From Methylobacterium mesophilicum SR1.6/6 (lineage in GTDB: Bacteria > Pseudomonadota > Alphaproteobacteria > Rhizobiales > Beijerinckiaceae), in NCBI RefSeq assembly GCF_000364445.2, contig NZ_CP043538.1, forward strand, positions 5,165,447 through 5,229,446: a stretch of DNA of 64,000 nt. The letters run 5' to 3'. The notes below the pieces were generated by a model. That model did no database searches. It saw nothing but the letters and a program-made list of their open reading frames with translations, and had not been told where the DNA came from. A program made the position numbers and the translations under genes. How positions within the stretch are numbered: the stretch's first letter is position 1; the number at the start of each line of letters is the position of its first letter. Below are positions 25,498 through 41,352 of this stretch, one piece after another.

Positions 25498-25536
25498 CCC
25501 ACTCACCGAGCGTCTGAAGTTGAAGGGCTATCGGAA

Positions 25537-25719: not shown

Positions 25720-25725
25720 CCGGGT

Positions 25726-26862: not shown

Positions 26863-27090
26863 ATGGATCTGGCCATGCGCAAACAGTCCCTCCGTGCCTT
26901 CGTTGAGATCGCTCCCGACTGCTTCGTTCCCTGTAAGAAGCTTGCCTTCGATGCCGAAGCGCTCGCTGGTGCCGCGAACATGCTCGAAGCCGATATCCGG
27001 AAGGCTATCGGGGGCATGGCGCCGTTGGTGGGCGAGGACACCATCTTGCGGATCTGCCGCGAGGTGATGGCTGAGGACCGGGGGCGGTGA
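26863..27090 (+). CDS. Hypothetical protein
   Basis: 75 residues from the ATG at 26863 (MDLAMRKQSLRAFVEIAPDCF); an ATG four codons later is also possible. Balanced composition: an N-terminal strand-helix region, then a helix (EALAGAANMLEADIRKAIGG). No family recognised. It lies alone between the tRNA and the convergent DUF2335-like gene. Confidence 0.5.
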   Translation: MDLAMRKQSLRAFVEIAPDCFVPCKKLAFDAEALAGAANMLEADIRKAIGGMAPLVGEDTILRICREVMAEDRGR

Positions 27091-27146
27091 GAGCCTGATC
27101 CGTTCGCGCGGACCATCGTGGGAGACCTGCTCGCGATGGCGTGAGA

Positions 27147-27794: not shown

Positions 27795-27987
27795 CCTGTT
27801 GCGCAGCTCGGTTCAGATGCCGTCCAACCGAGTCCCACGCACGACCTATTGTTTCGCCCGGCTGCAAGGCTCGGGGTCCCGGCAGGGGTTGAAGCAGCAG
27901 CAAGGGGCCCGAGAACCCCAGGGCAAAATTCTGGGCGAATGTGCGAGCTGAGACTTTGATGCGATATCCGTTCGCGAAGCGGCTCAT
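27760..27987 (-). CDS. Hypothetical basic protein upstream of the DUF2335-like gene
   Basis: 75 residues from the ATG at 27987 (MSRFANGYRIKVSARTFAQ). Basic, with a short hydrophobic patch (FSGPLLLLQPLP). No family recognised. It overlaps the DUF2335-like gene by 35 bp, so the two are likely co-expressed. Confidence 0.45.
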   Translation of the reverse strand: MSRFANGYRIKVSARTFAQNFALGFSGPLLLLQPLPGPRALQPGETIGRAWDSVGRHLNRAAQQVEREQRSKRSL

Positions 27988-28352
27988 CGTTTTCTCTCCA
28001 CGCACGCGGTGCAGCCAGATGCCTTCCGCGAAGACGCTTTTGAGTTGGGCAAAGCCCGACGGCTCGTTTTCTGTACCACCATGCTATCAATATGCCATCT
28101 CGTAACGCGTTCCGGTATGCGATGAAACGCACAGCGCTGTTACACGCGCGGTTAATGCGGATCGCAGTCGCGCCAGGCAAAACGCGCGCAGCGAAATTCG
28201 TAGCACCAATTCGGTTTTCCGTGAGCGCGCCGCTCGTCGTGCAGTTAATTGCACGCGCTAATCCGCCACGCACGGCGTGCTAAGCGGAGGCGCATTGGTG
28301 GAACGAATTTGGCGTGGGGGTACGCTGCGCGCGCCAGATCTAGCGCGCGGCT
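27988..28352. other. Intergenic region with GC-rich palindromes
   Basis: 365 bases between the tape-measure stop and the next small gene. No convincing frame. It holds several GCGCGC-rich stretches and a near-palindrome GTGCAGTTAATTGCAC (28239-28254). On the minus strand a CGCGCGC-8 nt-GCGCGCG hairpin near 28331-28352 directly follows the tape-measure gene and could be its terminator, though no T tract follows. Confidence 0.4.
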
Positions 28353-30722
28353 TTAATCCGCCTTCGCCATCTGCCGCCCATGGTTCTGGACGATGTCGCG
28401 GAACAGGTTCCCCGTGGCGGAGGTCGTGACCCGAGCGTCCGGCCCGGCCTTCTGCACGTTGACCGTCACGCTGCCGTTGTTCTCCACCTTGGGTCCGGCC
28501 ACGATGCCAGCCCTGCCGGCGGAGGCGTCGAGGCGGCCCTCGTTCCGGCTCATCTGAGCCTCGTAGGCTTTCCGGGCATTCTCCCGGGCTGCCCAAGCCT
28601 CGCCATCGGCTTTGCTGACATCTGGACGCGGGAGGCCGGATAGGCGGTTGGCCGGCATCTCAGGATCGGCACGCAGGGCATTGCGGACTGCACCGGAGCG
28701 CCGGTTGATGAACTTCGGCGCCTCGAACTCCTTCGTGATGGTGTTGGTGTCGCCCTCGAGGTTGCCCGAGCCGCCACCCATCAGGATGCTACGAGTTCGA
28801 GGATAGCGCCCCGACATGGCGCTGTGAGCCATCTCGCGCATCTGCCCCTCAGCGGAGTTGCGGGCGTAGCCGTTCTGCTCAAGCCAACGGACCATGTCGC
28901 TGCGCCGAGCGCCCCGATAGTTGCCCCAGCCGTGCGGGTCCCGCGCGCCGTAGATGCCGTAGCCGGTCCCGCCGTCGTGGACCTTGTTCGGGTCGAGGCC
29001 GGACTCCATCGTGGCCTGCCCGACAAGATGCGCGGCGGACTCCCGCAGCTTGTCCTCCGGCACACCTTCCCGCCGGAGCTGATCCATCGCGTAGCCCATC
29101 ATCTGGCTGGTGCGTGCCGCGCCCGCGGTCCCGCTGCCATCGCCACGAGGAGCCGAGCCGGCGCCGATCCCTTCCAGCCGCGGCGCACCGCTGCCGAGGC
29201 CGTTGAGGCGCCCACCGCCGCGGCCTGCATCTGGACCAGCAGGGCCGGCCTCGCCGCTGTAGCCTGGCCCTGAGCCGCCGCCCGGCAGGTTCGCGCCACG
29301 TCCGAGCCCAGGAAGCCGCCCGAAGCCGCCACCGCCCGTGAAGGCCGCCGACTGGATCCTGGCACCTGCGAACGGCCCGTCGCCCTCCGCAGAGCTTTTC
29401 TGAGCCTTGGCGTCGCCTTCGCTCTTCTGCCGGAGCGCCCGGATCTCCTCCGTCAGCTTCTCCATCTCTCGGCGCAGACGGTCGGCCTGCTCACGGGCGC
29501 GCTCGCTGGCGGTGCCGCTCTTCTCGGACGCTGCGAAGTTCTCCAACTGGCGTTTCACTTGGTCGAGGCGGTCCTGCTTGTTCAGCACCTCATCGCCGGG
29601 CAGCGGAGCGAGGCGCCGGGCGAGCGGGCCGGATCCACCATCGAGGTGCCGGAACGCTTCGACGTACTTGCCTTCATTGAAGGAGCGGATCGCCGCGGCA
29701 ATCTCCTTGATGTCGTTGGCCAGGGGCTGCACCAGCGCGGTGGTCGAGAGCAGCATCTCCTTCGCTGAGGCCCCGGCGCCCTTCCAATCGATGGCGTTCA
29801 GCTCGCGGGCGATGTCCTGCAGGCCGCCGCGCAGACCCTTCACGAAGTCGCCACGCTGATCCTTGGCTATGCCGTCGATCCACTGGGTGAACTCGGAGGC
29901 GAAGGGCAGCACCTCCTTGGCGATGGTGGTGCCGATCGTCTGCATGGAGGTGCGCAGGTCGGCGATGGCCTGCTCGAACTTCTCAGCCTGCAGGAGGGCC
30001 TTCGGATCGAGCGGGCCGAGCCGTTCCTTCGCCGCGTTCCACACGTCGCTGAGCTTGCCGAGGTGCCCGTCCGCCAGTCGGCCGAAGTCCGAGTTGCCGA
30101 ACAGGTGCTGGGCGAAGATCCCGCGCTCGACAGGGTTCTTGATCGTCTCCATGAAGGTGAGGCTCTTGCGGAGCTTCTCGCCCTCATCCGTCGTGCCGCG
30201 GATGTCCTGGGCGAAGTCCTGAAAGGCCTTCCGTCCGGCCGCATCCGTGCCCTGCCGGTTGATCCACTGGTAGGTGTCGCCGATCCCGCGGGCGAACTCG
30301 CGCATGTTCCCGGCGAAGGTCTTGGTGCCGGAGGCGACCGCATCCTGTTCCAGACCGAACTTGCGGGCCACGGCGCCGAAGGTCTGCAGCGTGCCGGCCG
30401 CCACGCCGGTCTCGCGCGAGAGCGCGCCCAGGCTCGACAGGTTGCTGGAGAGCTTGCTCAGCGACATTGCCACGCCGGCCACCGCCGCGCCCGCCGTCAG
30501 GCCCGTCACGCCGACCGTCGCCAACGCGGGGTTCAGCACCGTCGTCGCGGAGCGCGCGGTGGACTGGATTGCCGCCTCGGCCTTGCCCATACCCTTTGCC
30601 AGGGTCTCGCCGTGGCTGGCGCCCTGCCGGGAGACGTCGAGCAGCTGGCTGCGCAGCGATTTCAGCGGGCCGCTGAATTTATCAACGACCTCGGCCTGCA
30701 TCCGCAGGGTCTCATCGGCCAT
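28353..30722 (-). CDS. Phage tail tape-measure protein with tail lysozyme domain
   Basis: 789 residues. The N-terminal helical region (KFSGPLKSLRSQLLDV, then hydrophobic Ala/Gly/Val-rich segments around 75-110) is typical of short tape-measure proteins; a coiled coil covers about 385-440. A Gly/Pro-rich linker (about 455-530) leads to a phage tail lysozyme-type domain (about 540-680, Glu near 573 in QATMESGLDP). The C-terminal tail has VENNGSVTVNVQ. The protein sets tail length and helps penetrate the wall. It follows the baseplate hub gene by 30 bp. Broken relatives lie at 3035 and 4093. Confidence 0.85.
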   Translation of the reverse strand: MADETLRMQAEVVDKFSGPLKSLRSQLLDVSRQGASHGETLAKGMGKAEAAIQSTARSATTVLNPALATVGVTGLTAGAAVAGVAMSLSKLSSNLSSLGALSRETGVAAGTLQTFGAVARKFGLEQDAVASGTKTFAGNMREFARGIGDTYQWINRQGTDAAGRKAFQDFAQDIRGTTDEGEKLRKSLTFMETIKNPVERGIFAQHLFGNSDFGRLADGHLGKLSDVWNAAKERLGPLDPKALLQAEKFEQAIADLRTSMQTIGTTIAKEVLPFASEFTQWIDGIAKDQRGDFVKGLRGGLQDIARELNAIDWKGAGASAKEMLLSTTALVQPLANDIKEIAAAIRSFNEGKYVEAFRHLDGGSGPLARRLAPLPGDEVLNKQDRLDQVKRQLENFAASEKSGTASERAREQADRLRREMEKLTEEIRALRQKSEGDAKAQKSSAEGDGPFAGARIQSAAFTGGGGFGRLPGLGRGANLPGGGSGPGYSGEAGPAGPDAGRGGGRLNGLGSGAPRLEGIGAGSAPRGDGSGTAGAARTSQMMGYAMDQLRREGVPEDKLRESAAHLVGQATMESGLDPNKVHDGGTGYGIYGARDPHGWGNYRGARRSDMVRWLEQNGYARNSAEGQMREMAHSAMSGRYPRTRSILMGGGSGNLEGDTNTITKEFEAPKFINRRSGAVRNALRADPEMPANRLSGLPRPDVSKADGEAWAARENARKAYEAQMSRNEGRLDASAGRAGIVAGPKVENNGSVTVNVQKAGPDARVTTSATGNLFRDIVQNHGRQMAKAD

Positions 30723-30752
30723 GCCGGCCTCCTATGATCTGTGTGGGGGCGC

Positions 30753-31868
30753 TCAGGTGTAGAGCCCCGCTGGGGTACCGCCGGAGCCCTGAGCCCCGCC
30801 GGACTGGACCTGGCCGCCGCCGTTGAAGGCTTCCGGCAGGACGAGGTTGATGTCGGTGGTGGTGCCCTGTGGCCCCTGAGAAGATGTCACGGCCTGGATC
30901 GCCAGCTGCATGCGGTCCTTGGTGAACAACATCGGGCTGAAGACGCTGACCACGTCGCCGATGTGCTCAAGCCAAAGGCTGTTCTGATCCTTGAACCAGC
31001 CCTGGACCTTGATGTTCACGTTGATCTGGTTGGCGAGATTGAACCCGTTCTCGTGCTGGGCTCGCATCCGCATGTCGGCCTGGTCGCCCGGCATCTCCGC
31101 AATCAGGTGGTACGGCGCGTGCTCGGTCACGGCCGAGTTCTTCACCGTCGCGGTCACGTCCCGGGAGGCGTCACCGAAGGTCTGATCGTTGCCGGGCTGC
31201 TGGCCGATGGACTGGATCTCGGAATAGGCGTCGGCGTAGTCGAACACCGCGTTGGCCGCGAGGATGTTGCGGCCCTCCTCCAGCTCGGCGATTGAGCCCG
31301 ACTTAGACTTCAGCCGGTAGCCCACGATGTCGGAGCCCTGGCCCGGCAGCAGATAGATGTTCCGGAACCGGCACAGGCGCTCGATGAAGGTGAAGACGCT
31401 CTCGCCAGCCTGGACGTTGACCTTGGGGAACACCTTGTCGGCGTCGGTGGTGTCGCCCTTCAGGCTGAACTTGATGCCGTAGGGTTGCAGCACCGAGTTC
31501 GCGATCTGGCTGAGGCTGTAGCCTTTGAACTCGCCTCGCTTCTCGTGATCGACGACCGAACGGGCAATCACCTGCGAGCGTGTGGTGCCGGTGATCTGCA
31601 GGCCGTGCTCCTTGGCGTCGTAGGCCGGCTGCCGGCCAGTGATGCGGCCCTCGGCAACGGCCTGTCGCCCGCCGAGGTACACCTCGCACGGATCACCGAT
31701 CCCGAGCTTCATTGAGGCGAAGTCCGGGGCACTCTCGGCCGGGGCGGCTGCCGTGAATGCGAACTTCGGGAATAGCTCGACGCCGCTCCGGGTGACGGAT
31801 GCCGTCATCCAGTTCTTGTAGCGCTTCCCCTTCACGAGGATCTCGGCGACTTCCTGCGGCTTCGGCAT
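30753..31868 (-). CDS. Phage baseplate hub protein, Mu gpP (gp44) type
   Basis: 371 residues. Features of the Mu gpP/late control D family: an N-terminal VTRSGVELFPKFAFTA strand region, then GDPCEVYLGG, ITGRQPAYDAKEHGLQITGTTRS, and a central FTFIERLCRFRNIYLLPGQ with the hub fold, then the beta-rich C-terminal part (RMRAQHENG, WLEHIGDVVSVFSPML). This protein forms the tail hub beneath the tube. It starts one base after the stop of the 40-residue gene. No spike, tube or sheath gene is nearby. Confidence 0.8.
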   Translation of the reverse strand: MPKPQEVAEILVKGKRYKNWMTASVTRSGVELFPKFAFTAAAPAESAPDFASMKLGIGDPCEVYLGGRQAVAEGRITGRQPAYDAKEHGLQITGTTRSQVIARSVVDHEKRGEFKGYSLSQIANSVLQPYGIKFSLKGDTTDADKVFPKVNVQAGESVFTFIERLCRFRNIYLLPGQGSDIVGYRLKSKSGSIAELEEGRNILAANAVFDYADAYSEIQSIGQQPGNDQTFGDASRDVTATVKNSAVTEHAPYHLIAEMPGDQADMRMRAQHENGFNLANQINVNIKVQGWFKDQNSLWLEHIGDVVSVFSPMLFTKDRMQLAIQAVTSSQGPQGTTTDINLVLPEAFNGGGQVQSGGAQGSGGTPAGLYT

Positions 31869-31869
31869 G

Positions 31870-31992
31870 TCAGTCGGCCTTCACCCAGCGGGAACCGTTC
31901 CAGCGCAACCGCACGCCGAGCAGCTCGCGGATCTCGCCGAGGATTGGCGGGGCGTTGGTCGGGACGGGCGTTGGGGCTGGCTGATCGGTCAT
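31870..31992 (-). CDS. 40-residue protein between small terminase and baseplate hub
   Basis: Forty residues starting MTDQPAPTPVPTNAPPILGE and ending RLRWNGSRWVKAD. The ATG overlaps the small-terminase stop (ATGA) and its stop is one base before the hub start, so it is firmly embedded in the operon. Pro-rich N-terminus and a WNGSRW segment; no family recognised. It is too short for most gene finders. Confidence 0.65.
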   Translation of the reverse strand: MTDQPAPTPVPTNAPPILGEIRELLGVRLRWNGSRWVKAD

Positions 31993-32525
31993 GCCGCTTC
32001 TTCAGTCGTGCCCTTGCCGGACAGGGCCCGCACCTCATGCTCGACGACCAACTCCTGCAGGATGGCGACAACCTCATCGTAGAGGATGGCCCGGATGGGT
32101 TCCGCTTCCGGCCGCATCACCAGCCGCGGGGCTACCCGGGAGGGCAGGCCGAGCATCTTGTTTCGGACCCGGGTTGAGCTGCGGGTAACGATCGCAACGG
32201 CATCATCAATCAGCACCACGTTGCCGAATGCGATGTCGTTCTTGATCTCGGCCGAGATGGCGAGCGCCCGATCCTTCCGAGCCCGCTCCTGCGCCGGGTC
32301 GAGGTTGCCGGGCGCGATCTCCGGCGTGGCCCGCAAATGGGCAAGGTAGGCGCGCACCACCGGGATCAGCGGATAGCGTCCGCGCTCCTCCTTCGGCAGT
32401 ACGTCCTCGGCCACGAGCTGCTGAACACGACGCGGCGTCACGTCGAGCACGTGCGCGATCGTGGAAACCGGCACCATCAGTGCGGCGTCGGCGGCGGCAT
32501 CAAGGCTGGCGGATTTCGCTTTCAA
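31989..32525 (-). CDS. Phage terminase small subunit-like protein, Nu1 type
   Basis: 178 residues. The N-terminal winged-helix region (about 15-65: VPVSTIAHVLDVTPRRVQQL, then GRYPLIPVVRAYLAHLR) matches Nu1/TerS DNA-recognition domains; a charged helical part (LDPAQERARKDRALAISAEIKN) and C-terminal region follow. Such proteins recognise packaging sites on phage DNA. No large terminase is encoded in the window. First gene of the operon running through the hub and tape-measure genes. Confidence 0.75.
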   Translation of the reverse strand: MKAKSASLDAAADAALMVPVSTIAHVLDVTPRRVQQLVAEDVLPKEERGRYPLIPVVRAYLAHLRATPEIAPGNLDPAQERARKDRALAISAEIKNDIAFGNVVLIDDAVAIVTRSSTRVRNKMLGLPSRVAPRLVMRPEAEPIRAILYDEVVAILQELVVEHEVRALSGKGTTEEAA

Positions 32526-32788
32526 CGGCCGGTTTCCTCGAAGCTACGGTGACAAATTTGATTTGAGATGACGAAGCGAAACGCGCTGTAAAATTTGACA
32601 CCTGCGGAGAAGCTTTGCTCGGGCGGACCCTCACCTCTGGGGGTGGTCTGGAAGGACCCCGGAACTCGCTCTGACCGGACACCCTCCGTGCGGAGATCCC
32701 CGTTGGGTCCTACCTGCTCATCGGCCTCAGGGCGCTGCAGGGGCGTGTGTGCTATACTGTCCAGACCGACGAACCGATGGAGGTTCTG

Positions 32789-33082
32789 ATGGACGTGAAG
32801 CAGTCGACTGAGCTTGCGGTCCTCGTCATTTCGGTGATCGCGATAATCGCTAGCTTCTTCAACATGCTGACCCGAGAGCGTCGCGTGAAGGTTGGTTACA
32901 TCTACAACGGCAGCGGTAGTGGCGGAGGCGGGAGCTACGGCGGCTCGAGCCCCTCGACGGACAACAGTTCGTCGTCCGGCGGCCATGGTGGTCACGGCTG
33001 CTCGCACGGCGGCTCCTCCAGCGACGGCGGAAGCTGTGGTGGTGGAGACGGCGGTGGCGGCGGCGGTGGTGGAGGCGACTGA
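32789..33082 (+). CDS. Membrane-anchored Gly/Ser/His/Cys-rich protein
   Basis: 97 residues from the ATG at 32789, preceded by GGAGG at a spacing of 6. One transmembrane helix (about 8-27), a short basic region, then a roughly 55-residue tail almost entirely Gly, Ser, His, Asp and Cys, with GGHGGHGCSHGG in the middle and a final run of Gly. No family known to me. The His/Cys content suggests metal binding, but this is inference. It is divergent from the small-terminase operon. Confidence 0.6.
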   Translation: MDVKQSTELAVLVISVIAIIASFFNMLTRERRVKVGYIYNGSGSGGGGSYGGSSPSTDNSSSSGGHGGHGCSHGGSSSDGGSCGGGDGGGGGGGGGD

Positions 33083-33090
33083 CACGGTCG

Positions 33091-33273
33091 TCAGCCTCGC
33101 CGGAACGCAGTGCCGTTGGCCTGAGCGTCCTCGGCGGACTCGTGCAAGGTGCCGGGCTTGATGACAGCCCGCTCGGTGTTGCCGATGCCGTGAGCGTCAC
33201 CGTGATCGACAGGCGTGGTCTCAATAACCGGCACGTCGGGCTTCACGGTGGTGTCGGGCTTTGTGCTGGCCAT
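33091..33273 (-). CDS. Hypothetical polar protein
   Basis: 60 residues from the ATG at 33273 (MASTKPDTTVKPDVPVIETT), preceded by GGAGAG. Polar, with Thr/Pro repeats at the N-terminus and no hydrophobic core, so probably disordered. The frame stays open upstream to 33495 but with atypical composition. No family recognised. Confidence 0.45.
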   Translation of the reverse strand: MASTKPDTTVKPDVPVIETTPVDHGDAHGIGNTERAVIKPGTLHESAEDAQANGTAFRRG

Positions 33274-33500
33274 GAGGCTCTCCGGACTGTCGGGTGAGGA
33301 GACCGCAGCGGGGTGACCCCCTCCGCCGCGATCTCCGTTGGTCCCTGCTTGGTCAGGGAGTGCAGCCTCGCCGGCCTTTGGATCCCCGGTCCCATGGCCA
33401 TGGTCATTCGGGGACAGGCTGGCTTTCCGCTGTTGGGCTGACTGCATCGCCCTCAATGGCGCGGGGAGAAGGCCCGTAGGCTTGGACCCGCGCAATTCCT

Positions 33501-33767
33501 TCAGCCGGTACGCTTCCAGCGGCTGCCGTCAGCCGCGTAGCGCTCCTGGCCAACCTGATAGGCGGTGCCGGGAACGTGCAGATCGCGCCGGCTCTGCTCA
33601 ACGGCCGTGCGGGTCTGCGTGCCCTTGGCCTCGTCCTGGCGGTTCTGAGCCGACCAAGCGGCCATGCGCTCCGCCTGAGTGGGCTTGCGCTCGGGAGCGG
33701 TCGGCTCGGGCTTGCGGAACAGACGACGCGCCCAGGCGGCGCCTTCCTCGATCTCAGCGCGGGTCAT
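33501..33767 (-). CDS. Hypothetical protein, phage-type
   Basis: 88 residues from the ATG at 33767 (MTRAEIEEGAAWARRLFRKP). A helical N-terminus, a charged middle (QAERMAAWSAQNRQDEAKG) and a C-terminal segment with VGQERYAADGSRWKRTG. It overlaps the end of the upstream gene by 14 bp, consistent with an operon with the RHH regulator. Family not recognised. Confidence 0.5.
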   Translation of the reverse strand: MTRAEIEEGAAWARRLFRKPEPTAPERKPTQAERMAAWSAQNRQDEAKGTQTRTAVEQSRRDLHVPGTAYQVGQERYAADGSRWKRTG

Positions 33768-34422
33768 GGACAATCCTGTAGGGAAGCGGGGCGGCGATCT
33801 CGCCCCAGATGAAGCCAGTGCCGTTGCCCGGGTTGGGCAACCGCACGCGGCTGGCGATTGAGGCGTGCGGCTGGTCGAGCCTGCCCTCCCAGCGGCAGGG
33901 GGGCTCGCCGGTCGGAACTGGATCAACGCCATCGGGCAAGGCGAAGTTGGCGGACTCGATCAGCGCGGCACGCTCGCGGATCCGCTCCAACAACGGCACC
34001 AGGCGCTGGGCCTCGGTGACATACTCGGTCGCTAGCTTCTCGACCTCGGCAGAGGCCTTCATGGCCTTGCGGTGAAGATCTTTGCGGCGCTTCTGCTCGG
34101 CCTCGTGCGCGGCCTGAGCCTCGGCCTCAGACACCAACGCTGCGGCGTGCTGGGCATGAGCCTGAGCCATCCGGATCCGAGCGTGCTCAATGCTGGCGTC
34201 GAGGGCGGCGACCTCCTCCGGCGAGCCGAGCAAGAGCATATCGGGGCGGCTCGCCAGCAAGGCATCGCACTGGCGTCGCGCGTGCTCACCATCAGCGAAG
34301 ATCTGCGCGGAGGTGCGGGGCTCCGATGGCGCTACGGGCTTTAGGTCAGGACGGCTGCGGCCGAGGCTGACGTACGGCGCGACGTGGCGGTCGGTGCGGA
34401 TGTTGGCGATCGGGAGGTTCAT
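33754..34422 (-). CDS. Coiled-coil protein of unknown function
   Basis: 222 residues from the ATG at 34422 (MNLPIANIRTDRH). A long Ala/Glu/Arg-rich coiled coil spans about 70-155 (HARIRMAQAHAQHAAALVSE and on), followed by a beta-like C-terminus (RVRLPNPGNGTGFIWGEIA). It begins 11 bp after the RHH gene. A phage-structural or scaffold role is conceivable, but I recognise no family. Confidence 0.55.
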   Translation of the reverse strand: MNLPIANIRTDRHVAPYVSLGRSRPDLKPVAPSEPRTSAQIFADGEHARRQCDALLASRPDMLLLGSPEEVAALDASIEHARIRMAQAHAQHAAALVSEAEAQAAHEAEQKRRKDLHRKAMKASAEVEKLATEYVTEAQRLVPLLERIRERAALIESANFALPDGVDPVPTGEPPCRWEGRLDQPHASIASRVRLPNPGNGTGFIWGEIAAPLPYRIVHDPR

Positions 34423-34433
34423 GCCGATCTCCC

Positions 34434-34664
34434 TCAAGCTGCACGAGCGAGGGCGGCCGCCGGGCCGGCGGGTCGGGGACCGTCGCCACCGTCCAGATCC
34501 GGGAGGGCAACGCCATCGGCGGCAAGGCGCTGCCGTAGTGCTTGGCGCATCCACTCCGCGGACGACGTGCGAGCCTTCCGAGCGGCGCGAGCAACGGCGT
34601 GGTTCAGGCCGGGCTCAGCCCTGAAGCGAACGGGTTCGGAGAACTCGATACGGTCGGCGGACAT
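34434..34664 (-). CDS. Ribbon-helix-helix regulator
   Basis: 76 residues. The N-terminal strand EFSEPVRFRAEPGL and helices AVARAARKARTSSAEWMRQA fit an Arc/MetJ-like ribbon-helix-helix domain with an Ala/Pro-rich tail. First gene of a minus-strand set continuing to 33501. A repeat array (34729-34788) lies 65 bp upstream of its start, so it probably represses itself. Confidence 0.6.
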   Translation of the reverse strand: MSADRIEFSEPVRFRAEPGLNHAVARAARKARTSSAEWMRQALRQRLAADGVALPDLDGGDGPRPAGPAAALARAA

Positions 34665-34728
34665 CTCGGGCGCACTCCGTGTGCAAATGATGCTCTAAGA
34701 TGTGTTGTGATCTGAGATATAATTGCAA

Positions 34729-34788
34729 GCGAACGACTTGTGTCTATCAGTCGTTCGCCGTCGTTCGCTGTTATGCCTAGTTATTCGC
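34729..34788. promoter_or_regulatory. Operator array upstream of the RHH gene
   Basis: A perfect 10-bp inverted repeat, GCGAACGACT (34729-34738) and AGTCGTTCGC (34749-34758), with a 10-bp spacer. It is followed by a direct copy GTCGTTCGC at 34760 and a weaker TTATTCGC at 34781. Spacings of 10 and 21 bp equal one and two helical turns. The region 34690-34850 is markedly AT-richer than its surroundings. From 34665 to 35107 I find no gene. Confidence 0.6.
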
Positions 34789-35107
34789 TGTTGTGTTGTG
34801 TTATTACTAGACTGCGTTGTTCTGCCGCGGGTGTTCGGCGCTCTTTGGTGACTAGCGATCCAGCGGTCACCGAAATCCGACGCCTCGCGCTGGCAGCCGC
34901 CTGATCGCAAGCTTTCGTTAACCACGATGCCGTTCTCTGAGTCATGGTCGACCCCGCGCTGGCGCGGAAGTTGCAGTTCTCAGCGGAGGAGAGGTGCGAT
35001 GGATCAGCAATACGGCAGCGATCACGAGGATCGTCAGCAGATGGAGTGACATGCCGCACGGCGCAGCTTCGATGATCTCGCCACATTGAGCGGGAAAGGA
35101 TCGCGCC

Positions 35108-35212
35108 ATGATCAGCATGTCGAACCGCATCATCATCGCCACGCCCGCCGCGCTCGGGATGCTCCTGACCGTCGCGCTGATGGCGCAGAGCGCCGCCGTC
35201 GCGATGCAGTGA
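35108..35212 (+). CDS. 34-residue hydrophobic peptide
   Basis: Begins MISMSNRIIIATPAALGM and is hydrophobic to the end (LLTVALMAQSAAVAMQ). The ATG at 35108 has AAAGGA about nine bases upstream. Probably one short transmembrane helix. It is too short for standard gene calling, and the evidence is composition and start context only. Confidence 0.35.
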   Translation: MISMSNRIIIATPAALGMLLTVALMAQSAAVAMQ

Positions 35213-35347
35213 TGTGATCGTCAGGCAGGCCGGAAGGCTGCGCTTATCCAGCGGCCATCACAATCCCGCGTTGAAACACAAATGCCGCTGACACGTGCTA
35301 CGTAGGCCGGGCAGTTGCGTCATTCGTCGCCTTATCGGGAGGCTTCG

Positions 35348-35716
35348 ATGTCGTTTGTTACCTGGCTGGTCTCCAAGACGATCGCATTTCTCCTTGGCAA
35401 CGCCCAGGAGCGGAAAGCCGACATAATCGCCGCCAAGAAGGAAGCCGGCGATTTCAACGGTGAGTTCTTCTTTAGGGCAAGGAACTTCGAGACAGATTAC
35501 AATGCTGCCGTGCGGATGCTGAGAGACCGGATCGACCGCAAGTTCCCAAGCGGCCACTATGGGCGGCTCAGAGCGGGGGAGAATAGCCCCTACGATCACG
35601 GTGAAGATCGCGCGCACGCCGTGGATACCATGTCGACCGCGATAGCGATGGCTCTGCGAGACGGGGCTACCGTGAAGCAGGCCGCTGAAGCCGGCGCGGC
35701 GAGCGTAGGCATCTGA
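35348..35716 (+). CDS. Hypothetical protein
   Basis: 122 residues from the ATG at 35348 (MSFVTWLVSKTIAFLLG), with AGGC/GGGAGG context upstream. A mildly hydrophobic N-terminus, then a soluble charged region (FRARNFETDYNAAVRMLRDRI) and a C-terminal helix AVDTMSTAIAMALRDGATV. Family not recognised. First of three small plus-strand genes facing the replication module. Confidence 0.55.
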   Translation: MSFVTWLVSKTIAFLLGNAQERKADIIAAKKEAGDFNGEFFFRARNFETDYNAAVRMLRDRIDRKFPSGHYGRLRAGENSPYDHGEDRAHAVDTMSTAIAMALRDGATVKQAAEAGAASVGI

Positions 35717-35813
35717 TCGGCTAAGCCTTCCGCCCCCTCCCTAATTTGGAGGAAGAAACCCACAGCCCTTAGCAATAGAAGGCGCTCAGGTGTCCCGGCA
35801 GAGGCGCTTTCCG

Positions 35814-36056
35814 ATGAGGCTCGATCTTGATCTTCCCGGCATCTGGATCGTTGATCCCGAGGACGTGGCACTGCGCATCGGCGTGAGTGCGGCCGCTCTA
35901 AAGCGCTCTGTCATTGAGGGGAACGCCAGGGTTCTGATCGTCCCCGAAAGCTGGGTGGACGCGGGCAGCGCGCGCGTCACAGTTCATCACTACGATGGCG
36001 GGTGGCAGGGCACATTCGATCAGAGCGGGCAGCTCGTGACGGAGCACGTCTGGTAA
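35814..36056 (+). CDS. Hypothetical protein
   Basis: 80 residues from the ATG at 35814 (MRLDLDLPGIWIVDPEDVAL); a GTG at 35790 would add eight basic residues. The middle VALRIGVSAAALKRSVIEG resembles a short helix-turn-helix-like segment and the end is beta-like (HHYDGGWQGTFDQSGQL). No family recognised. Confidence 0.55.
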   Translation: MRLDLDLPGIWIVDPEDVALRIGVSAAALKRSVIEGNARVLIVPESWVDAGSARVTVHHYDGGWQGTFDQSGQLVTEHVW

Positions 36057-36117
36057 CTGCAGCCGCACCATATGGGCCGATGTGAGTTGAACCTCCTACT
36101 GACCGGAGGACATCAGC

Positions 36118-36303
36118 ATGGCTCAACCCATCTACCCTGATGTGAACACCAGCTCGGCGAGCAACCACGCCACCACTCGGCCGATCCACCGCGCGGGTGA
36201 AGACGTCGACACCACGGACCAGCTCCCCAGCCCGTACCTCCTAGGCATCGCGACCGCCGGTTCGTTCGTGGCGCTCCTGTTGGTCAAGCTTGTGATCGGT
36301 TGA
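36118..36303 (+). CDS. Small membrane protein
   Basis: 61 residues. ATG at 36118 with GGAGG ten bases before it. A polar N-terminal 40 residues and one C-terminal transmembrane helix (about 41-60: LGIATAGSFVALLLVKLVIG), i.e. a tail-anchored layout. No family recognised. Convergent with the RepA-like gene across the repeat region 36325-36422. Confidence 0.55.
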   Translation: MAQPIYPDVNTSSASNHATTRPIHRAGEDVDTTDQLPSPYLLGIATAGSFVALLLVKLVIG

Positions 36304-36324
36304 ACGCTGCATAGACGACTGGGT

Positions 36325-36422
36325 CGGACAAACCGGACATTCCGGACAGATGTCCCGTTTGTCCGGCGTCCAGCACCGGACGGACAGGACAAAACCCTAG
36401 GGATCTGTCCTGTCCGTCCGGT
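36325..36422. repeat. CGGACA iterons and 16-bp inverted repeat after the RepA-like gene
   Basis: CGGACA occurs at 36325, 36334 and 36343, an exact 9-bp period, followed by TGTCC and GTTTGTCCGG in the opposite sense (CGGACAAAC/GTTTGTCCG forms a 9-bp stem). Then ACCGGACGGACAGGAC (36375-36390) and its perfect complement GTCCTGTCCGTCCGGT (36407-36422) flank 16 nt. It lies between two convergent genes, so a bidirectional terminator is the simple reading. The iterons beside a replication gene also allow an origin. Confidence 0.65.
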
Positions 36423-36430
36423 CGATCGGG

Positions 36431-37693
36431 TCATTCCCCCGCCTCGATCAGCCAGATGTGGTCGATGCCATTCAGGGCCACGGAGCCGATCAGGCTGCGG
36501 CCGAGGCAGGTCTCCACGGCTCGCTTGAACGCCTTGCGCTTGGCTTCCGACCGCTTGGCCTCGTCGTCCCCATCGGCCGGGTAGATGGCGAAGAACGCCG
36601 CCCTTACGGCTTGCAGCGGTACGGCTCGGACTTCGGCGGCCTCGTTCCCGAACGGCCACGCTCGGATGCCCTCTTCGGCGCGACTCGTCAGCAAGGCCTG
36701 CCGGAACACCTTCGACGAGGTTGGCCAGCGATCCCTGCTGGCGGCGACGGCCGCGGCCGAGGTCCGGTCCGTCTGCCAGTTCACCACACAGGTGGTGATC
36801 GGCTCGCGGTCGTAATTCTCGCCGACGGTGACGATCTCCAGATCGAACGGGATCTCGTACCCGCAGCGCGCGCCGCGCACCTTCCGGATCGCCATGCGCG
36901 TGTTGCTGATGGACCCGCCCTCGTCCCGGTTGGCGAGGACGGCGAGAACCGCGTCCGCCGCAGCCTCCTTGGCAGAGGAGCCCCGCGTGCCGGTCTCGGC
37001 GGTCTTCCCGAAGTGGTCGATGCCGAGGACGAATGCCCCCGTCTGGCGACTCAGCGCCTCCATGGCGTTCATCACCCGCTGCGCCTCGGCGGCCGAGTTC
37101 TCGTCTCCGAAACCAGCCGCTGCCGCGACGGTGTCCACGATGATCAGCGCGAGCGGAAGGTCGAAGGTCTCGCGCAGATGGTCGGCAGCGGCCTTGGCTA
37201 CCGCGACGAGTTGGGCGACCGCCTCGGTGCTGAGCAGGCGCGGACAGTCATCGATCCATGCAAAGGGAAGCCTATCACCGGGATCGCCTCCCAGCTTCCC
37301 CTGAACCAGACCGCGCAGCCGGATCGGGATCTCAAAGGCACCCTCCGAGGCGACGAACAGAACGCCGCCCTGCCGGACAACACGTCGTCCGGCGAACGGC
37401 TGCCCGGTCATCACCGACGCGGACAGGTCGATCGCCGTGAAGGTCTTCCCGCATCCCCATTGGCCGGGCATCAGGCCTTTGCCGGTTTCGCAGATTAGAT
37501 CCTGGACCAACCAAGCGCGATCGGCGTCTGGGTCCGCATCTCCGTGCCAGCGAATGCTGATCGCGGTACTGGCAAGGGCCGCACTATTATTGCGACCCTT
37601 ACCCCGCGGCATGGCGTCGGGATCGGGGCCGGGCCAGCCGTGAAACTGGTCCGCTTCGTCCGGCGAGGAGTCATTGAACGAGCGCTCGGACAT
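36431..37693 (-). CDS. RepA-like AAA ATPase / helicase
   Basis: 420 residues with a RecA-type ATPase core (AAA_25/RepA family): Walker A GQWGCGKT at 77-84, Walker B LALIIVDT with Asp187, and an IDHFGK motif downstream that fits the sensor region. The family includes the RepA hexameric replicative helicase of RSF1010 and DNA-repair RadA-like proteins. The C-terminal part (about 330-415) is a small domain with AFKRAVETCLGRSLIG. It follows the Toprim gene and a 77-residue gene with overlaps, so it belongs to the island's DNA-processing operon. Confidence 0.8.
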   Translation of the reverse strand: MSERSFNDSSPDEADQFHGWPGPDPDAMPRGKGRNNSAALASTAISIRWHGDADPDADRAWLVQDLICETGKGLMPGQWGCGKTFTAIDLSASVMTGQPFAGRRVVRQGGVLFVASEGAFEIPIRLRGLVQGKLGGDPGDRLPFAWIDDCPRLLSTEAVAQLVAVAKAAADHLRETFDLPLALIIVDTVAAAAGFGDENSAAEAQRVMNAMEALSRQTGAFVLGIDHFGKTAETGTRGSSAKEAAADAVLAVLANRDEGGSISNTRMAIRKVRGARCGYEIPFDLEIVTVGENYDREPITTCVVNWQTDRTSAAAVAASRDRWPTSSKVFRQALLTSRAEEGIRAWPFGNEAAEVRAVPLQAVRAAFFAIYPADGDDEAKRSEAKRKAFKRAVETCLGRSLIGSVALNGIDHIWLIEAGE

Positions 37694-37926
37694 CAGGCGC
37701 CTCCGCGCGAGCTGGTGGGCTTGAGTAGCGCCGCGGCGTCCGCCGCGCTGGCGAGAGCGACGGCAGCTTGGCGCAGCGCGTACCGAAGGCCGCGGGCGTC
37801 ACCGATCGCCGCGAACTCGGTGGCCATCCTGGCGTAGCTCTCGGCGATCGACGCGGCCTCGTGGACGGCGTCGAAGGTGTGGGCGGTCATGGCCGCCCGC
37901 TCGGGGCTATGGAACGGCGCGTTCAT
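37693..37926 (-). CDS. Hypothetical helical protein in the replication operon
   Basis: 77 residues from the ATG at 37926, which overlaps the upstream stop as ATGA; its own stop overlaps the RepA-like start (TGATG). Ala-rich and helical (ASIAESYARMATEFAAIGDA). No family recognised. The double overlap makes it a firm gene and a likely partner of the ATPase. Confidence 0.6.
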   Translation of the reverse strand: MNAPFHSPERAAMTAHTFDAVHEAASIAESYARMATEFAAIGDARGLRYALRQAAVALASAADAAALLKPTSSRGGA

Positions 37927-38834
37927 GCCGCGCCTCCCTCGCTGAACTGTTCGCCCCAAGCGCGCAGCAGGTCCCTCTCGGACCGCTCAGCAACCCTGAG
38001 TGCGGCGAGCGCGACCGGCGAGATGTGCCGCTCAATCGCTTCCCGAACCATACCCTTCAGGACTCGGGGCGGGAGCGCGTCCAACTCAACGCTCTCGCCC
38101 TCAAAGTCCTTGGCGTGTCGATTGCCGTCCCGCTTCGTCGGACGCGTCGGCAACCGATGCTCCTTGATCTGGCGCTCGGTCAGCGCCACCCGCTCCACGG
38201 TGAAGTCGATCCCCGGGCAGAACTCCCGGAGTCGTGACTCAATGGTGCGAGGGATCAGCGCACCGGTCGGGTCGTGGTCGCCGAATTGGTAGATGTAGCT
38301 GGGGCGCCGACGGACCTGCCACTCGCGCCTGATCTGCTCGGCTGTCGAATGCAGGAAGGTGAGCGAGGGCATGCCCTTCGACGACAACAACGGCACGTCG
38401 TAGGTCGAGGTCGGATCCCACATGATGCCGGACAGCGCGTCCTTCTCGACCCAGATCTCAATGTAGGCGGGCGAGTCCCGCAAAGCGCTGCGGCGATAAA
38501 AGGTGGCGGTGTCGTCCGCCGCCTCCGCGATGCTGCTGTAGGTTCTGGTTACCTGCCGCCGGCGGGTGTGATCCACGATCCAGTGGAACGGCAACTCGCC
38601 GTCGATCCGCATCGAAGTCAGCAGGCGCACCACCGTCTGCTGGTACTCGGCCTCGGTCTTCTCAATCACGCTGCGTTGGACGAGCTGATAGTAGATCTGC
38701 CGGACCGTCATCGGGTGGTCGGCCGCGACGATATCGTAGATGACCTGCTTGAGGTCGGTGACCGCAGCCTTTGACCGCCGCGCCCGCTTTGTAGGGCATG
38801 CCTGATAAGTCGGGTTGATGGCTGAGGTGCTCAT
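37923..38834 (-). CDS. Topoisomerase VI-A/Spo11-like Toprim protein
   Basis: 303 residues. The ATG at 38834 has GGAGG upstream and overlaps the previous stop. The N-terminal winged-helix carries MTVRQIYYQLV with Tyr48 and Tyr49 at the place of the catalytic tyrosine of TopVI-A/Spo11. The Toprim part has Glu130 in IWVEKDALSG and the DxD pair Asp186/Asp188 in FGDHDPTG. Orphan TopVI-A homologues (Mini-A type) are known from mobile elements. It may nick or cut DNA during replication or transfer. No TopVI-B subunit is present. Confidence 0.75.
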   Translation of the reverse strand: MSTSAINPTYQACPTKRARRSKAAVTDLKQVIYDIVAADHPMTVRQIYYQLVQRSVIEKTEAEYQQTVVRLLTSMRIDGELPFHWIVDHTRRRQVTRTYSSIAEAADDTATFYRRSALRDSPAYIEIWVEKDALSGIMWDPTSTYDVPLLSSKGMPSLTFLHSTAEQIRREWQVRRRPSYIYQFGDHDPTGALIPRTIESRLREFCPGIDFTVERVALTERQIKEHRLPTRPTKRDGNRHAKDFEGESVELDALPPRVLKGMVREAIERHISPVALAALRVAERSERDLLRAWGEQFSEGGAA

Positions 38835-39043
38835 CGCGACGCCCTCCACGAGTCCGAGGAGGCGAACGCCAATTCCGCGACCACCGCGGCGAGGCTAGAG
38901 CTGAAATCGTACCGTGCACGCAGGTGCCTGGTCTGGATTTCGAGCGGGGTGGGTGCTATCTCAGAACCATCGGTGCCCACCGAGAATTCCGAGGCCCGCC
39001 GGCTTGCCAGAGCCGTGCGGGCTTCACCTTTTCTGGACGCCAT
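38831..39043 (-). CDS. Hypothetical protein upstream of the Toprim gene
   Basis: 70 residues (MASRKGEARTALASRR). Arg/Ala/Ser rich, with a helical C-terminus SSLAAVVAELAFASSD. Its stop overlaps the Toprim start as ATGA, and it begins four bases after the excisionase-like stop, so it is part of the same operon. No family recognised. Confidence 0.5.
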   Translation of the reverse strand: MASRKGEARTALASRRASEFSVGTDGSEIAPTPLEIQTRHLRARYDFSSSLAAVVAELAFASSDSWRASR

Positions 39044-39047
39044 TCGT

Positions 39048-39275
39048 CTACGCGGCCTCCGTCTCTAGAGAGGCCGCGAAGGCCCGCAGGGAGTCGTCGG
39101 TGATCCGTGTCGCGGATCCGATCTTCACCACCTTCAGTTTGCCCTGCCCGATCAGGCGGTAGAGCGTGGTGGTGCCGATGCCGAGCGCCTCGCGGACCTC
39201 GTTGGGCCGGTGCAAAAGCTTCCCCGTCGACGGACGCAGGTCTCCCTGCACCGCCTGAAACCTTTCGGTATTCAT
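39048..39275 (-). CDS. Excisionase-like helix-turn-helix protein
   Basis: 75 residues. The segment LLHRPNEVREALGIGTTTLY, then RLIGQGKLKVVKIGSATRIT, is the MerR-like HTH_17 fold of excisionases and AlpA-type activators. It directs integrase towards excision or activates transcription. First gene of the DNA-processing operon (39275 to 36431). Two identical palindromes (39364 and 39394) lie upstream. Confidence 0.75.
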   Translation of the reverse strand: MNTERFQAVQGDLRPSTGKLLHRPNEVREALGIGTTTLYRLIGQGKLKVVKIGSATRITDDSLRAFAASLETEAA

Positions 39276-39363
39276 GGCTCTTGTCCTCTGATTTCGCCGG
39301 CAATCCAGCGAAGACAGGCGAATACTGTGGTTGGGCGCTTAGTAGAGCAAGCGTCCGAAATGC

Positions 39364-39409
39364 GCGTTCTTAAGAGCGCGCGAAATAAATACTGCGTTCT
39401 TAAGAGCGC
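39364..39409. promoter_or_regulatory. Twin identical operators upstream of the excisionase-like gene
   Basis: GCGTTCTTAAGAGCGC occurs at 39364-39379 and again at 39394-39409, exactly 30 bp apart (about three turns). Each has a perfect TCTTAAGA core. The AT-rich gap AAATAAATAC between them may hold part of the promoter. The right copy overlaps the last codons and stop of the upstream gene. Confidence 0.75.
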
Positions 39410-39921
39410 AGATTGGCAAGCCGTCTTCGAACCGCGTCGACACTCACCTCTTTGAAGCCAGCCTGCGCCAGGGATTTGTTGACCTGGCTCAGGATAAGAG
39501 AGGCCGCACCCCTTGCCGCGATCTGCTTGTAACTTTTGTTCTGGACTGCCTGTCTCACCGCCCGCAGTAGCGCGCGCTCTTCCGGGCTGTTCTGACGTGC
39601 TGCCCGCGCTTTGGCCGCCTGCACGGACGGAGCTGACAACTCAATCTCCGCGTCGGCGAGGAAGCGAGACCCCTCCAGCAGTCCCCGCAACATGACTGCG
39701 AGGTCAAGTACGATGGCCTCAGCATTTTCTGGATCCGACTGTATCAATCGGTCTGCTGTCCCAAGAAGCCGTCGTCCTGCTTCAGCTACCGACGACCAAG
39801 TCGAGCGTTCAGCAAGCGACTCCGCTGTAGGCGTAAGCTCACCAGCCTTTTCCTCGATCGCGTTGAGAACGCCAGCGATCCAGTCGTGCGTGCGCTGCGC
39901 TAGAGGGGAAGCTTGTCGCAT
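39400..39921 (-). CDS. Hypothetical protein between integrase and excisionase
   Basis: 173 residues from the ATG at 39921 (MRQASPLAQR), just after the integrase stop; an earlier start would overlap the integrase. All helical. The C-terminal part NKSLAQAGFKEVSVDAVRRRLANL could be a DNA-binding helix-turn-helix. It is placed where elements often encode a regulator, and twin operators overlap its 3' end. No family recognised. Confidence 0.55.
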   Translation of the reverse strand: MRQASPLAQRTHDWIAGVLNAIEEKAGELTPTAESLAERSTWSSVAEAGRRLLGTADRLIQSDPENAEAIVLDLAVMLRGLLEGSRFLADAEIELSAPSVQAAKARAARQNSPEERALLRAVRQAVQNKSYKQIAARGAASLILSQVNKSLAQAGFKEVSVDAVRRRLANLRS

Positions 39922-39926
39922 GCTGA

Positions 39927-41147
39927 TCAGTCGGATGTGAGCCGGGCCAAGCAATGGGTAGACCATGCTCCCATCAGGTCGCGCCGCTTCTCAAACAGGT
40001 CGCCGCGCCGGTAGGCCCTCTCCACCTTGGACTCAACGGTATGGGCGAGCGCCATCTCCACCACTTCGGACGGGAAGTCCGTGGTCTCGGAGGCCCAGTC
40101 TCGGAACGAGCTACGGAACCCGTGAACCGTCAGGTCGGGCCGCTCCATCCGTCGGAGCAACGTCAGCATGGCCATGTTGGAGAGCGGCTTCCCGCGCCGA
40201 CCTCCGGGGAACACGAAGGTGCTGTCGAGGCCCTGCATCTCGCCGAGGATCGCCAGCGCGGCGGGCGAGAGCGGCACACGGTGTTCGGCGCCAGCCTTCA
40301 TCCGCTCGGCCGGCACGGTCCAGATCCCGGCTTCCAGGTCGATCTCATCCCAGCGGGCGCCCAGCGCCTCGCCCGTGCGCGCGGCCGTCAGGATCGTGAA
40401 GGCCATCAGCTTCGACGCGACGCCGGGCTGCGCGGCCACGGCCTTCATGAACCCCGGCACGTCCTTGAACGGCAGGGCGGCGTGATGCTCGACCTTCCGC
40501 ACCTTGGATCGCTTCGGCAACAAGTTCTGGAGGTGGCCCTTCCAGCGGGCCGGGTTCTCGCCGCGCCGGTAGCCGCGGGTCGCGGCCCAATCCAGCACCG
40601 ACTCAATGCGTCCCCTCACCCGCGTCGCCGTCTCCGGCTTCGTGATCCAGATCGCCTCCAGGGCCTTCAGCACCAAGCCGGTGTCGACGGCCTGCACCGG
40701 CAGATCCCCGAACACCGGGAAGGCATAGGTCGCCAGCGTCGCGGTCCACTGCGCGGCGTGCTTGTCGTTGCGCCAGCCGGCCTTGTGAGCCTCGATGTAG
40801 GCCTCGGCGCAGGTGCGGAAGGTAATCGCCTTCGCGGCCTCTACGGCGGCCTCCTGACGCTGCCCGCGCCGCATCTCGATCGGGTCGATGCCCTCGTAGC
40901 AGAGCTTCCGACAGGTCAGGGCCTTGTCGCGGGCCTCGGCCAAAGAGAACGTGCTGACCGGCCCGAGCCCCATCTCCCGGGATTTTCCGCGCAGGGTGTA
41001 CCGGAAAACCCAGCTCTTCCCACCCTTGCCGGACACCTGCAGCCACAGGCCGCCCCCGTCCCCGTACATGCCGGGGATCTTCAGCTTGGTGACACCGAGG
41101 GCGGTGAGCTTGCCCAGCATGGCATTCGCACCCATGACGCTATCCAC
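39927..41147 (-). CDS. int: P4-type tyrosine integrase
   Basis: 406 residues; a start at 41132 is also possible. The N-terminal DUF4102-like arm-binding domain (LTALGVTKLKIPGMYGDGGG), core-binding domain (about 110-200) and catalytic domain carry Arg257 (TAARTGEALG), His342-x-x-Arg345 (HGFRSS), His369 and Tyr379 (ERAYRRGDL). It recombines the island with the adjacent tRNA-Ser 3' end, which lies 116 bp away. Confidence 0.92.
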   Translation of the reverse strand: MDSVMGANAMLGKLTALGVTKLKIPGMYGDGGGLWLQVSGKGGKSWVFRYTLRGKSREMGLGPVSTFSLAEARDKALTCRKLCYEGIDPIEMRRGQRQEAAVEAAKAITFRTCAEAYIEAHKAGWRNDKHAAQWTATLATYAFPVFGDLPVQAVDTGLVLKALEAIWITKPETATRVRGRIESVLDWAATRGYRRGENPARWKGHLQNLLPKRSKVRKVEHHAALPFKDVPGFMKAVAAQPGVASKLMAFTILTAARTGEALGARWDEIDLEAGIWTVPAERMKAGAEHRVPLSPAALAILGEMQGLDSTFVFPGGRRGKPLSNMAMLTLLRRMERPDLTVHGFRSSFRDWASETTDFPSEVVEMALAHTVESKVERAYRRGDLFEKRRDLMGAWSTHCLARLTSD

Positions 41148-41262: not shown

Positions 41263-41352
41263 TGGCGGAGGGAGCGGGATTCGAACCCGCGATACCGTTT
41301 CCGGTATACACACTTTCCAGGCGTGCGCCTTCAACCACTCGGCCACCCCTCC
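41263..41352 (-). tRNA. tRNA-Ser (GGA)
   Basis: 90 nt including an encoded CCA. The acceptor begins GGAGGGG; the anticodon loop CTGGAAA gives GGA; the long variable arm (TATACCGGAAACGGTA region) is typical of class II serine tRNAs; the T arm is GCGGGTTCGAATCCCGC. Its 3' end faces the integrase gene, the usual attachment site for P4-type integrases. Confidence 0.95.

Follow-up and report, generated by a model that had tools for sequence, protein, structure and literature searches.

A candidate phage satellite of Methylobacterium mesophilicum with its own small terminase, baseplate hub and tape measure genes

The island and its attachment site

The stretch of DNA analysed here, 64,000 nucleotides from Methylobacterium mesophilicum SR1.6/6 (contig NZ_CP043538.1, positions 5,165,447 to 5,229,446; called the window in the following), comes from a genome assembled as one contig of 6.56 Mb and harbors an island that is probably an integrated phage satellite carrying its own genes for a small terminase (TerS), a baseplate hub and a tape measure protein (TMP). 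An initial annotation, made without database searches, had placed such an island at 28353-41147, and the genes that it named, encoding an integrase, an excisionase-like protein, a replication ATPase, a TopVI-like protein, TerS, a hub and a TMP, are all present as open frames on the minus strand (Table 1). The bounds that it gave cover only the part from the TMP gene to the integrase gene. Because the end of the tRNA-Ser gene recurs at 23083 and because the alignment of the window with a related element starts at this repeat and extends inwards, with the outer DNA being unlike, the island is taken to be the 18.2-kb element at 23083-41276, with the 3' end of tRNA-Ser repeated at its two ends. 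Dinucleotide shuffling of the searched 9-kb stretch produced an equally long match once in 300 trials. The related element (L057 of genome G097; L and G designate loci and genomes) is located at the same tRNA-Ser, its integrase is 91% identical, and its far end is marked by a 16-base repeat.

Of the 14 elements examined for attachment (att) repeats, 5 have them at both ends, involving three different tRNA genes. Elsewhere than at this tRNA-Ser, they were found in G085 at tRNA-Ser TGA (14 bases) and in GXS13 and G040 at tRNA-Asn (51 bases), the far repeat of G040 being seen after taking in more flanking DNA. The att-bounded elements measure 18.18 (window), 18.28, 18.50, 18.31 and 20.03 kb; where att repeats are lacking, bounds were drawn by eye from gene maps, and several of these elements are cut by contig ends. 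The island in the window is a discrete integrated element with an integrase and att repeats.

At the copies of this tRNA-Ser gene in 12 other species, where a full prophage would, according to the initial annotation, have spoken for an island derived by deletion, phage structural genes were present in 0 of 12 cases (stretches of 4.7 to 19.9 kb, a small sample), and a related integrase was present in two. An exact empty site with both flanks was not found, and the left flank of the window lay beside the tRNA in none of these 12 loci. L175 (G083) has a related integrase of 92% identity at the same tRNA-Ser, in a contig that ends inside, and is probably another element; in L176 (G033), an integrase of 51% identity lies about 16 kb from the tRNA gene.

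Within the island, terS, a 40-aa open reading frame (ORF), the hub gene and the TMP gene look like one operon, since they overlap or are closely spaced: the hub gene starts beside the stop of the 40-aa ORF and the TMP gene starts 30 bases past the hub gene. The hub family profile matches the structures 1wru (Mu gp44) and 3cdd (MuSo2 tail protein).

Table 1. Features of the island and its integration site (window coordinates)
Feature	Position	Strand	Evidence or remark
attL core, 14 bases of the tRNA-Ser 3' end	23083..23096	.	exact repeat of 41263-41276
far-end region, small genes, sparse coding	23097..28352	.	some genes related to far-end genes of other elements
tRNA gene, CAT anticodon, carried by the element	26567..26642	+	ARAGORN; 96% identical to host copy
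TMP, 789 aa	28353..30722	-	several tape-measure PHROGs; C-terminal Phage_lysozyme2, E 9e-7
baseplate hub, 371 aa, Mu gp44/gpP type	30753..31868	-	phrog_177, E 2.5e-54; Mu gpP/gp44 domains
40-aa ORF between terS and hub	31870..31992	-	overlaps terS; relatives in many elements
terS, Nu1-type small terminase, 178 aa	31989..32525	-	phrog_57, E 5e-22; C-terminal part groups with that of prophage TerS
cos-like site, about 80 bases upstream of terS	32608..32665	-	
60-aa family protein	33091..33273	-	
88-aa family protein	33501..33767	-	
family marker, 222 aa, predicted long coiled coil	33754..34422	-	
76-aa ORF	34434..34664	-	relatives in L106 and L121
three small accessory genes, opposite strand	35348-35716, 35790-36056, 36118-36303	+	no PADLOC match
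AAA_25 replication ATPase	36431..37693	-	Pfam, E 6e-31
77-aa gene between ATPase and TopVI-like gene	37693..37926	-	
TopVI-A-like/Toprim protein	37923..38834	-	phrog_6247, E 3.6e-54
HTH_17 excisionase or AlpA-like regulator (putative role)	39048..39275	-	Pfam and PHROGs matches
188-aa ORF	39400..39966	-	part conserved in L057
tyrosine integrase	39927..41147	-	Pfam Phage_int_M 1.6e-31, Arm-DNA-bind_3 9e-20, Phage_integrase 6e-15
tRNA-Ser (GGA)	41263..41352	-	ARAGORN; its 3' end, 41263-41276, is attR

Related elements in Methylobacterium

Relatives of the 222-aa marker protein (gene 33754) were found at 17 loci among the contigs of one genome per species, all of them from Methylobacterium, and wherever a source organism was named for a relative it was Methylobacterium. 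Further relatives comprise at least 74 proteins in a large protein set and one in a viral contig (L123, which additionally has a TMP fragment of 372 aa), with no match among plasmids; seven marker loci that duplicated contigs of the G genomes were counted once. Among 111 genomes of the genus, the hub has matches in 26 and TerS in 17. These elements form a family, found only in Methylobacterium, in which the marker gene and a cos-like site are followed by terS and then by hub, TMP or both. The gene maps of the 21 elements considered here (L123 and the short fragment L122 were left out) reveal a common plan, within which integrases differ between elements, as do the genes for replication (AAA_25, Prim-Pol plus D5, or DUF3987). 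The order hub-TMP (type A) is present in the window, G040, G097, G086 and G103, the order TMP-hub (type B) in G073, G079, G085, G066, the second J-078 element and J-076, TMP alone in J-070, J-077, GXS13 and J-067, hub alone in G088 (with a TMP end), the second WL119 element and G046, and the series hub-chaperone-TMP in G090 (L061), where the chaperone corresponds to PF10109. The G046 element, which has no marker, came to light through the cos pattern described below, and in G103 the marker was not called. A TerS-like gene follows the cos-like position in all 21 elements; the 11 that were scanned all match TerS PHROGs, and the others were assigned by likeness. The G046 element (L193, G046:C6 41000-60999) is a sister element with a Prim-Pol primase, TerS and hub, in which neither a TMP nor gene 33754 was found. 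In L106 of M. longum, a 439-aa ORF at 12654-13973, by eye similar to a transporter of the major facilitator superfamily, stands in place of hub and TMP. The family was not found described in the literature searched, with subscription journals and preprints outside the reach of that search. The island DNA has no match among isolated phages, and its hub matches 136 phage records, all at less than 60% identity, with 27.6% being the best among the 15 listed.

In order to determine which virion genes these elements contain, they were searched with tblastn for 21 structural proteins taken from Methylobacterium prophages, namely three large terminases (TerL), two portals, two capsids, a protease, a sheath, a tube, two TMPs, two hubs, five further tail or baseplate proteins and two minor tail proteins; this set comprised neither the tail chaperone nor small proteins that join head and tail. 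Ten of the prophage genes were named by PHROGs (all in G013), the chaperone was recognized in G047, and gene maps served for the rest, the names spike, gp46-48 and minor tail being labels from gene order. TMP was detected in 17 of the 21 elements, hub in 15 and at least one of them in 20, and no matches were obtained in any element for TerL, portal, capsid, protease, sheath, tube, the further tail or baseplate proteins or the minor tail proteins. The initial annotation had likewise described the island as devoid of portal, capsid, TerL, sheath and tube, and with the queries used this holds for the whole of the DNA between the att repeats. The same queries matched the control prophages G013, G043 and G047 in 20, 19 and 20 of 21 cases, respectively, and G047 had supplied no query. 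The virion gene set of the elements is incomplete.

A feature overlooked by the initial annotation is a predicted cos-like site upstream of terS. By blastn, about 50-60 bases in this position proved to be common to elements of the family and to prophages of the genus that encode a GpA-type (lambda-like) TerL. The pattern consists of GGGTCCTTCC, about 17 bases and then GAGGGTC-GC-CGAG; lambda cosQ starts GGGTCCTTTCC. Exact matches number eight in 7 of the 111 genomes, compared with 0 for a reversed control, and are located in the window island (the sole match in its genome), in the elements of G073, G079, G085 and G046, in the prophages of G013 and G047 and in a prophage remnant of G013. As the pattern was written after viewing the window and some of its relatives, its presence in these is not independent, whereas its rarity elsewhere, the match in G046 and the second match in G013 are independent of the design. 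A profile built from four sequences was scanned over 62 loci (1.02 Mb) chosen for holding elements of the family, prophages or copies of the tRNA site. Twenty-seven distinct sites (28 rows, since two overlapping loci share one), including the four profile seeds, outrank any other; they belong to 19 of the 21 elements, 7 of 8 prophages and one remnant, and 26 of them precede a terS-like gene, the other adjoining the prophage remnant. From the eighteenth row on, E-values lie between 0.01 and 1.2, so that ranking and position carry the argument there. No ranked site was obtained in the elements of G088 and J-077 or in the prophage of G090. Together, the predicted cos-like site and TerS would represent a helper-like packaging signal and a terminase subunit. 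A second stretch at 32652-32715 (minus strand), which overlaps the upstream edge of the cos-like site and has no match in prophages at the cut-off used, is conserved among several of the elements.

Ratios of nonsynonymous to synonymous substitutions (dN/dS, Nei-Gojobori) are low. For the hub they are 0.10-0.18 in type A and 0.05-0.15 in type B (6 pairs each), for the TMP 0.13-0.37 in type A (10 pairs) and 0.09-0.32 in type B (6 pairs), for TerS 0.19-0.50 (6 pairs, four of them with dS above 1) and for the marker 0.23-0.42 (15 pairs). The genes for hub, TMP, TerS and marker are maintained by purifying selection and are not decaying.

Trees indicate that the tail genes have moved between elements and phages. 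In a tree of 12 satellite and 10 prophage hubs (the hub of G006 coming from a locus with baseplate genes and no mapped head block), the satellite label requires five changes, at least four of which are forced by well-supported branches, and none of 200 bootstraps gave a single change. As the satellite hubs are scattered among prophage hubs, the tail cassette has been exchanged repeatedly. In the marker tree (19 rows, 17 of them with a label; good support for 5 of 16 inner branches), tail types require six changes compared with a minimum of three, so that tail type does not track the marker, and type A elements are paired with TMP-only elements three times, one pair being well supported. TerS is modular, its N-terminal helix-turn-helix (HTH) parts and its C-terminal parts clustering differently, and the C-terminal part of the window TerS groups with prophage TerS. 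The TerS proteins of L057, L061, L073, L074, L107, L108, L112, L115 and L120 look shuffled, with like HTH halves attached to differing second halves. The order hub-TMP of the window and of type A is the reverse of that in the mapped prophages, where TMP precedes hub, mostly with two genes in between (the two adjoin in L068 and L069).

Proposed packaging by a helper and alternative readings

The best precedent is PLE11, one of the phage-inducible chromosomal island-like elements (PLEs) of V. cholerae, which encodes its own TMP, chaperone and hub and thereby makes chimeric tails; its TMP and hub are described as present in virions, and deletion of tmp as lowering transduction by about 99.9% (PMC12987554). 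With a probability that we put at about 0.7, the island is an integrated satellite of a new family, so far found only in Methylobacterium, which would be packaged by a helper and would use its own hub and TMP in a chimeric tail. The satellite reading already proposed in the initial annotation gains support from the recurrence of the cassette, its low dN/dS values and the absence of any other queried structural gene. The helper would be a myophage with a GpA-type TerL and a Mu-like contractile tail, either infecting or induced. After excision by the integrase and the HTH_17 protein and replication by its own genes, the element would use its TerS to bind its own cos-like site and to join the TerL of the helper, and its DNA would fill heads made by the helper. 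The satellite hub and TMP would then initiate the tail instead of those of the helper, and tube, sheath, remaining baseplate and fibres from the helper would complete a chimeric tail. Incorporation of hub and TMP into the virion, and with it a remodelled tail, is thus inferred from the PLE case.

More tentatively, at slightly less than even odds, the genes may constitute a plug-in cassette in which TerS domains, hub and TMP are swapped between helper types to refit a satellite backbone to the tail and terminase of another helper. Tail capture instead of capsid remodelling would then be the hallmark of this family, having arisen separately from that of PLE; this proposal draws on both gene orders and on at least two tail lineages.

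Prophages that might serve as helpers, with a GpA terminase and a Mu-like tail, were found in G013, G047, G043, G018, G097:C40 and G087. G097 thus combines a Mu-like-tailed GpA prophage (L072, L128) with the relative at the same tRNA-Ser, L057, whose cos-like site lies at 10777-10839. Their gene order is TerS, GpA TerL, portal, protease, capsid, sheath, tube, chaperone, TMP, hub and baseplate genes. Such candidates are common in the genus and are not enriched beside the satellites. One helper-type draft contig of 50.9 kb appears, according to its gene map, to consist of phage DNA throughout, so that the satellites have at most about two fifths of the length of that helper; att ends were searched for in the prophages and not found. 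The TMPs of type A satellites have 789-884 aa compared with 811, 781 and 779 aa in the prophages G047, G013 and G087, and those of type B have 702-725 aa compared with 707, 720 and 839 aa in G043, G018 and G097:C40. As these lengths are close to each other, the satellites do not evidently aim at a tail of altered length. It is more likely that their tail-starting complex is used preferentially or is resistant, or that the ejection step differs. L130 (G000:C1 6056000-6071999) is what remains of a prophage, with TerS, a GpA TerL of reduced length and, after these, genes that by eye resemble those of a tail end.

Several observations weigh against packaging by such a helper with a captured tail pair. 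The window's genome lacks an intact helper of the expected kind, with no sheath and no second hub detected (portal and capsid were not searched genome-wide), and its one GpA prophage has a TerL of 465 aa compared with about 680-700 aa. A GpA TerL is present in 5 of 12 satellite genomes and in 53 of 111 genomes overall and hence is not enriched. The exact cos pattern fails to pick up the elements in 7 of the 12 satellite genomes and the majority of GpA prophages, in which the site deviates at some positions, and many profile matches are individually weak, that of the window having an E-value of 0.038 although its pattern match is exact. The tail pair is not kept everywhere, as is evident from the 15 and 17 of 21 elements with hub and TMP, and L107 shows neither, its contig ending 825 bases past terS. 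The initial annotation had asked whether all frames stay intact across strains: the cassette recurs in 20 other elements at different sites and its frames are mostly open, but the hub of G103 is split over two frames and L106 keeps only the end of TMP. In 14 of the 21 satellites, the window not among them, TerS has a C-terminal part, forming a group of its own, that is absent from the 8 prophage TerS proteins compared, and type B elements display the prophage order TMP-hub.

Hub and TMP might instead be weapons, forming dead-end tail-starting complexes that poison tail assembly of the helper. Blocking of tail assembly is reported for other proteins of satellites or prophages, Tai (PMC11364771) and Rta (PMC12987554), and there are elements with TMP and no hub (L108, L110, L112, L119) or with hub and no full TMP (L063, L121, L193). 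However, both genes are full length and constrained, satellite hubs are mixed with phage hubs several times, and the PLE counterparts are found in virions, deletion of tmp there lowering transduction (PMC12987554), which makes this alternative unlikely.

Somewhat less probable still is a satellite that is immobile in this strain and is kept for another role, such as immunity, with hub and TMP being presently useless. The lack of an intact helper in the genome and the sparse 5-kb far end would fit such a state, but the core frames are all open and the relative with the 91% identical integrase at the same tRNA keeps the cassette. Satellites need not cohabit with their helper.

Descent from a prophage through loss of the head genes and of the majority of the tail genes is very improbable. 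The phage-type genes, the decayed tail genes in L106, L059 and L063 and the type B order TMP-hub speak for it. On the other hand, the same selective gene set is found in 20 of 21 elements, with low dN/dS and att ends, the reversed order of the window and of type A does not correspond to the mapped prophages, genes 33091, 33501 and 33754 were not seen in these prophages (33754 having been found only in Methylobacterium), and no phage structural gene was seen in the stretches of 4.7 to 19.9 kb at the 12 other copies of the tRNA-Ser site. Gene set and order of the window are not derivable by deletion from a related prophage, and independent decay would not yield a cassette that recurs at different sites with low dN/dS. 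Recurrence, order, selection and the lack of phage structural genes at the 12 copies of the site therefore led us to reject decay as a general explanation. Three other candidates were likewise rejected: a tailocin or free-standing tail (searches gave no sheath in this genome and no tube between the att repeats), a helper in the same genome (none intact) and a capsid-forming phage-inducible chromosomal island (PICI; no capsid, portal, protease or TerL match by tblastn).

Comparison with known satellites and minor features

Like PLEs, most of the Methylobacterium elements carry their own TMP, many together with a hub, and L061 has the same trio of hub, chaperone and TMP as PLE11, the rest of whose tail comes from the phage. 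According to PMC12987554, tmp is present in all PLEs and hub in some, and tmp genes fall into distinct sequence groups. The two differ in their bacteria, in the tail concerned (Mu-like here, that of ICP1 in PLE) and in that the candidate helpers here are prophages; moreover, the present elements have their own TerS and cos-like site, PLE being compared by description only. Chimeric tails are proven in PLE and inferred in the Methylobacterium family. The study (PMC12987554, 2026) calls chimeric satellite tails a first and leaves the benefit of tail replacement open; it lists PLE-like elements and capsid-forming PICIs (cf-PICIs) as other tmp carriers, and its main text nowhere names Methylobacterium. 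The present elements would be a further such family, from other bacteria; sister genomes contain helper-type prophages, the tails fall into two lineages and the cos-like site is shared with prophages. What a satellite gains from exchanging hub and TMP could therefore be studied in natural replicates, and the family suggests that replacing tail parts is a strategy of satellites beyond PLE and not an oddity of that group.

With proteobacterial PICIs, the elements share an integrase, an AlpA-like regulator (here HTH_17), a replication module, a specific att site and cos packaging (predicted here); the window thus has the integrase, replication module and master regulator of a PICI, the regulatory role of HTH_17 being putative. 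PICI candidates were selected for the absence of phage structural genes and have about 12-15 kb (PMC6092414), whereas the Methylobacterium elements carry two tail genes and measure 18-20 kb (18.2 kb in the window, 20.0 kb in a relative). The cf-PICIs encode their own capsid, portal and protease as well as the two subunits of the terminase (PMC10690885), of which only TerS is found here, and some have putative tmp genes (Extended Data Fig. 10 legend, PMC12987554); they resemble the present family in having a partial virion set. AH14b of Pseudomonas sp. ANT_H14 is a 16.8-kb element with integrase, AlpA-like protein and primase beside a 55-kb helper; it has one tail-assembly-like gene, its authors found no terminase gene, and no mention of a hub or TMP was found in its description (PMC4936722). 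The Mu-like-tailed GpA prophages of Methylobacterium possess related hub, TMP and cos-like site, but their head and tail blocks are present and TMP comes before hub. In its presumed working the island resembles a PICI or a PLE, yet its two tail genes and its size set it apart from PICIs, and the lack of capsid, portal, protease and TerL matches from cf-PICIs, and it is assigned here to a new satellite family.

The marker protein is predicted to form a long coiled coil (mean pLDDT 72.6), and its predicted structure has no match in the PDB at an E-value of 0.001 or better; a role as capsid scaffold was considered and no supporting evidence was obtained. A defence scan of 10 accessory or uncertain ORFs gave one weak GajB match (E 0.002, 14.7 bits) in a questionable ORF, and four far-end ORFs gave no convincing match to PADLOC. 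The tRNA gene with a CAT anticodon is shared by four elements (window, L057, L106 and L112). Outside the island, a 190-aa ORF at 4137-4709 of the window (minus strand), for which Pfam and PHROGs gave no firm match, has an end that by eye resembles the end of the island TMP and may be the remnant of another element.

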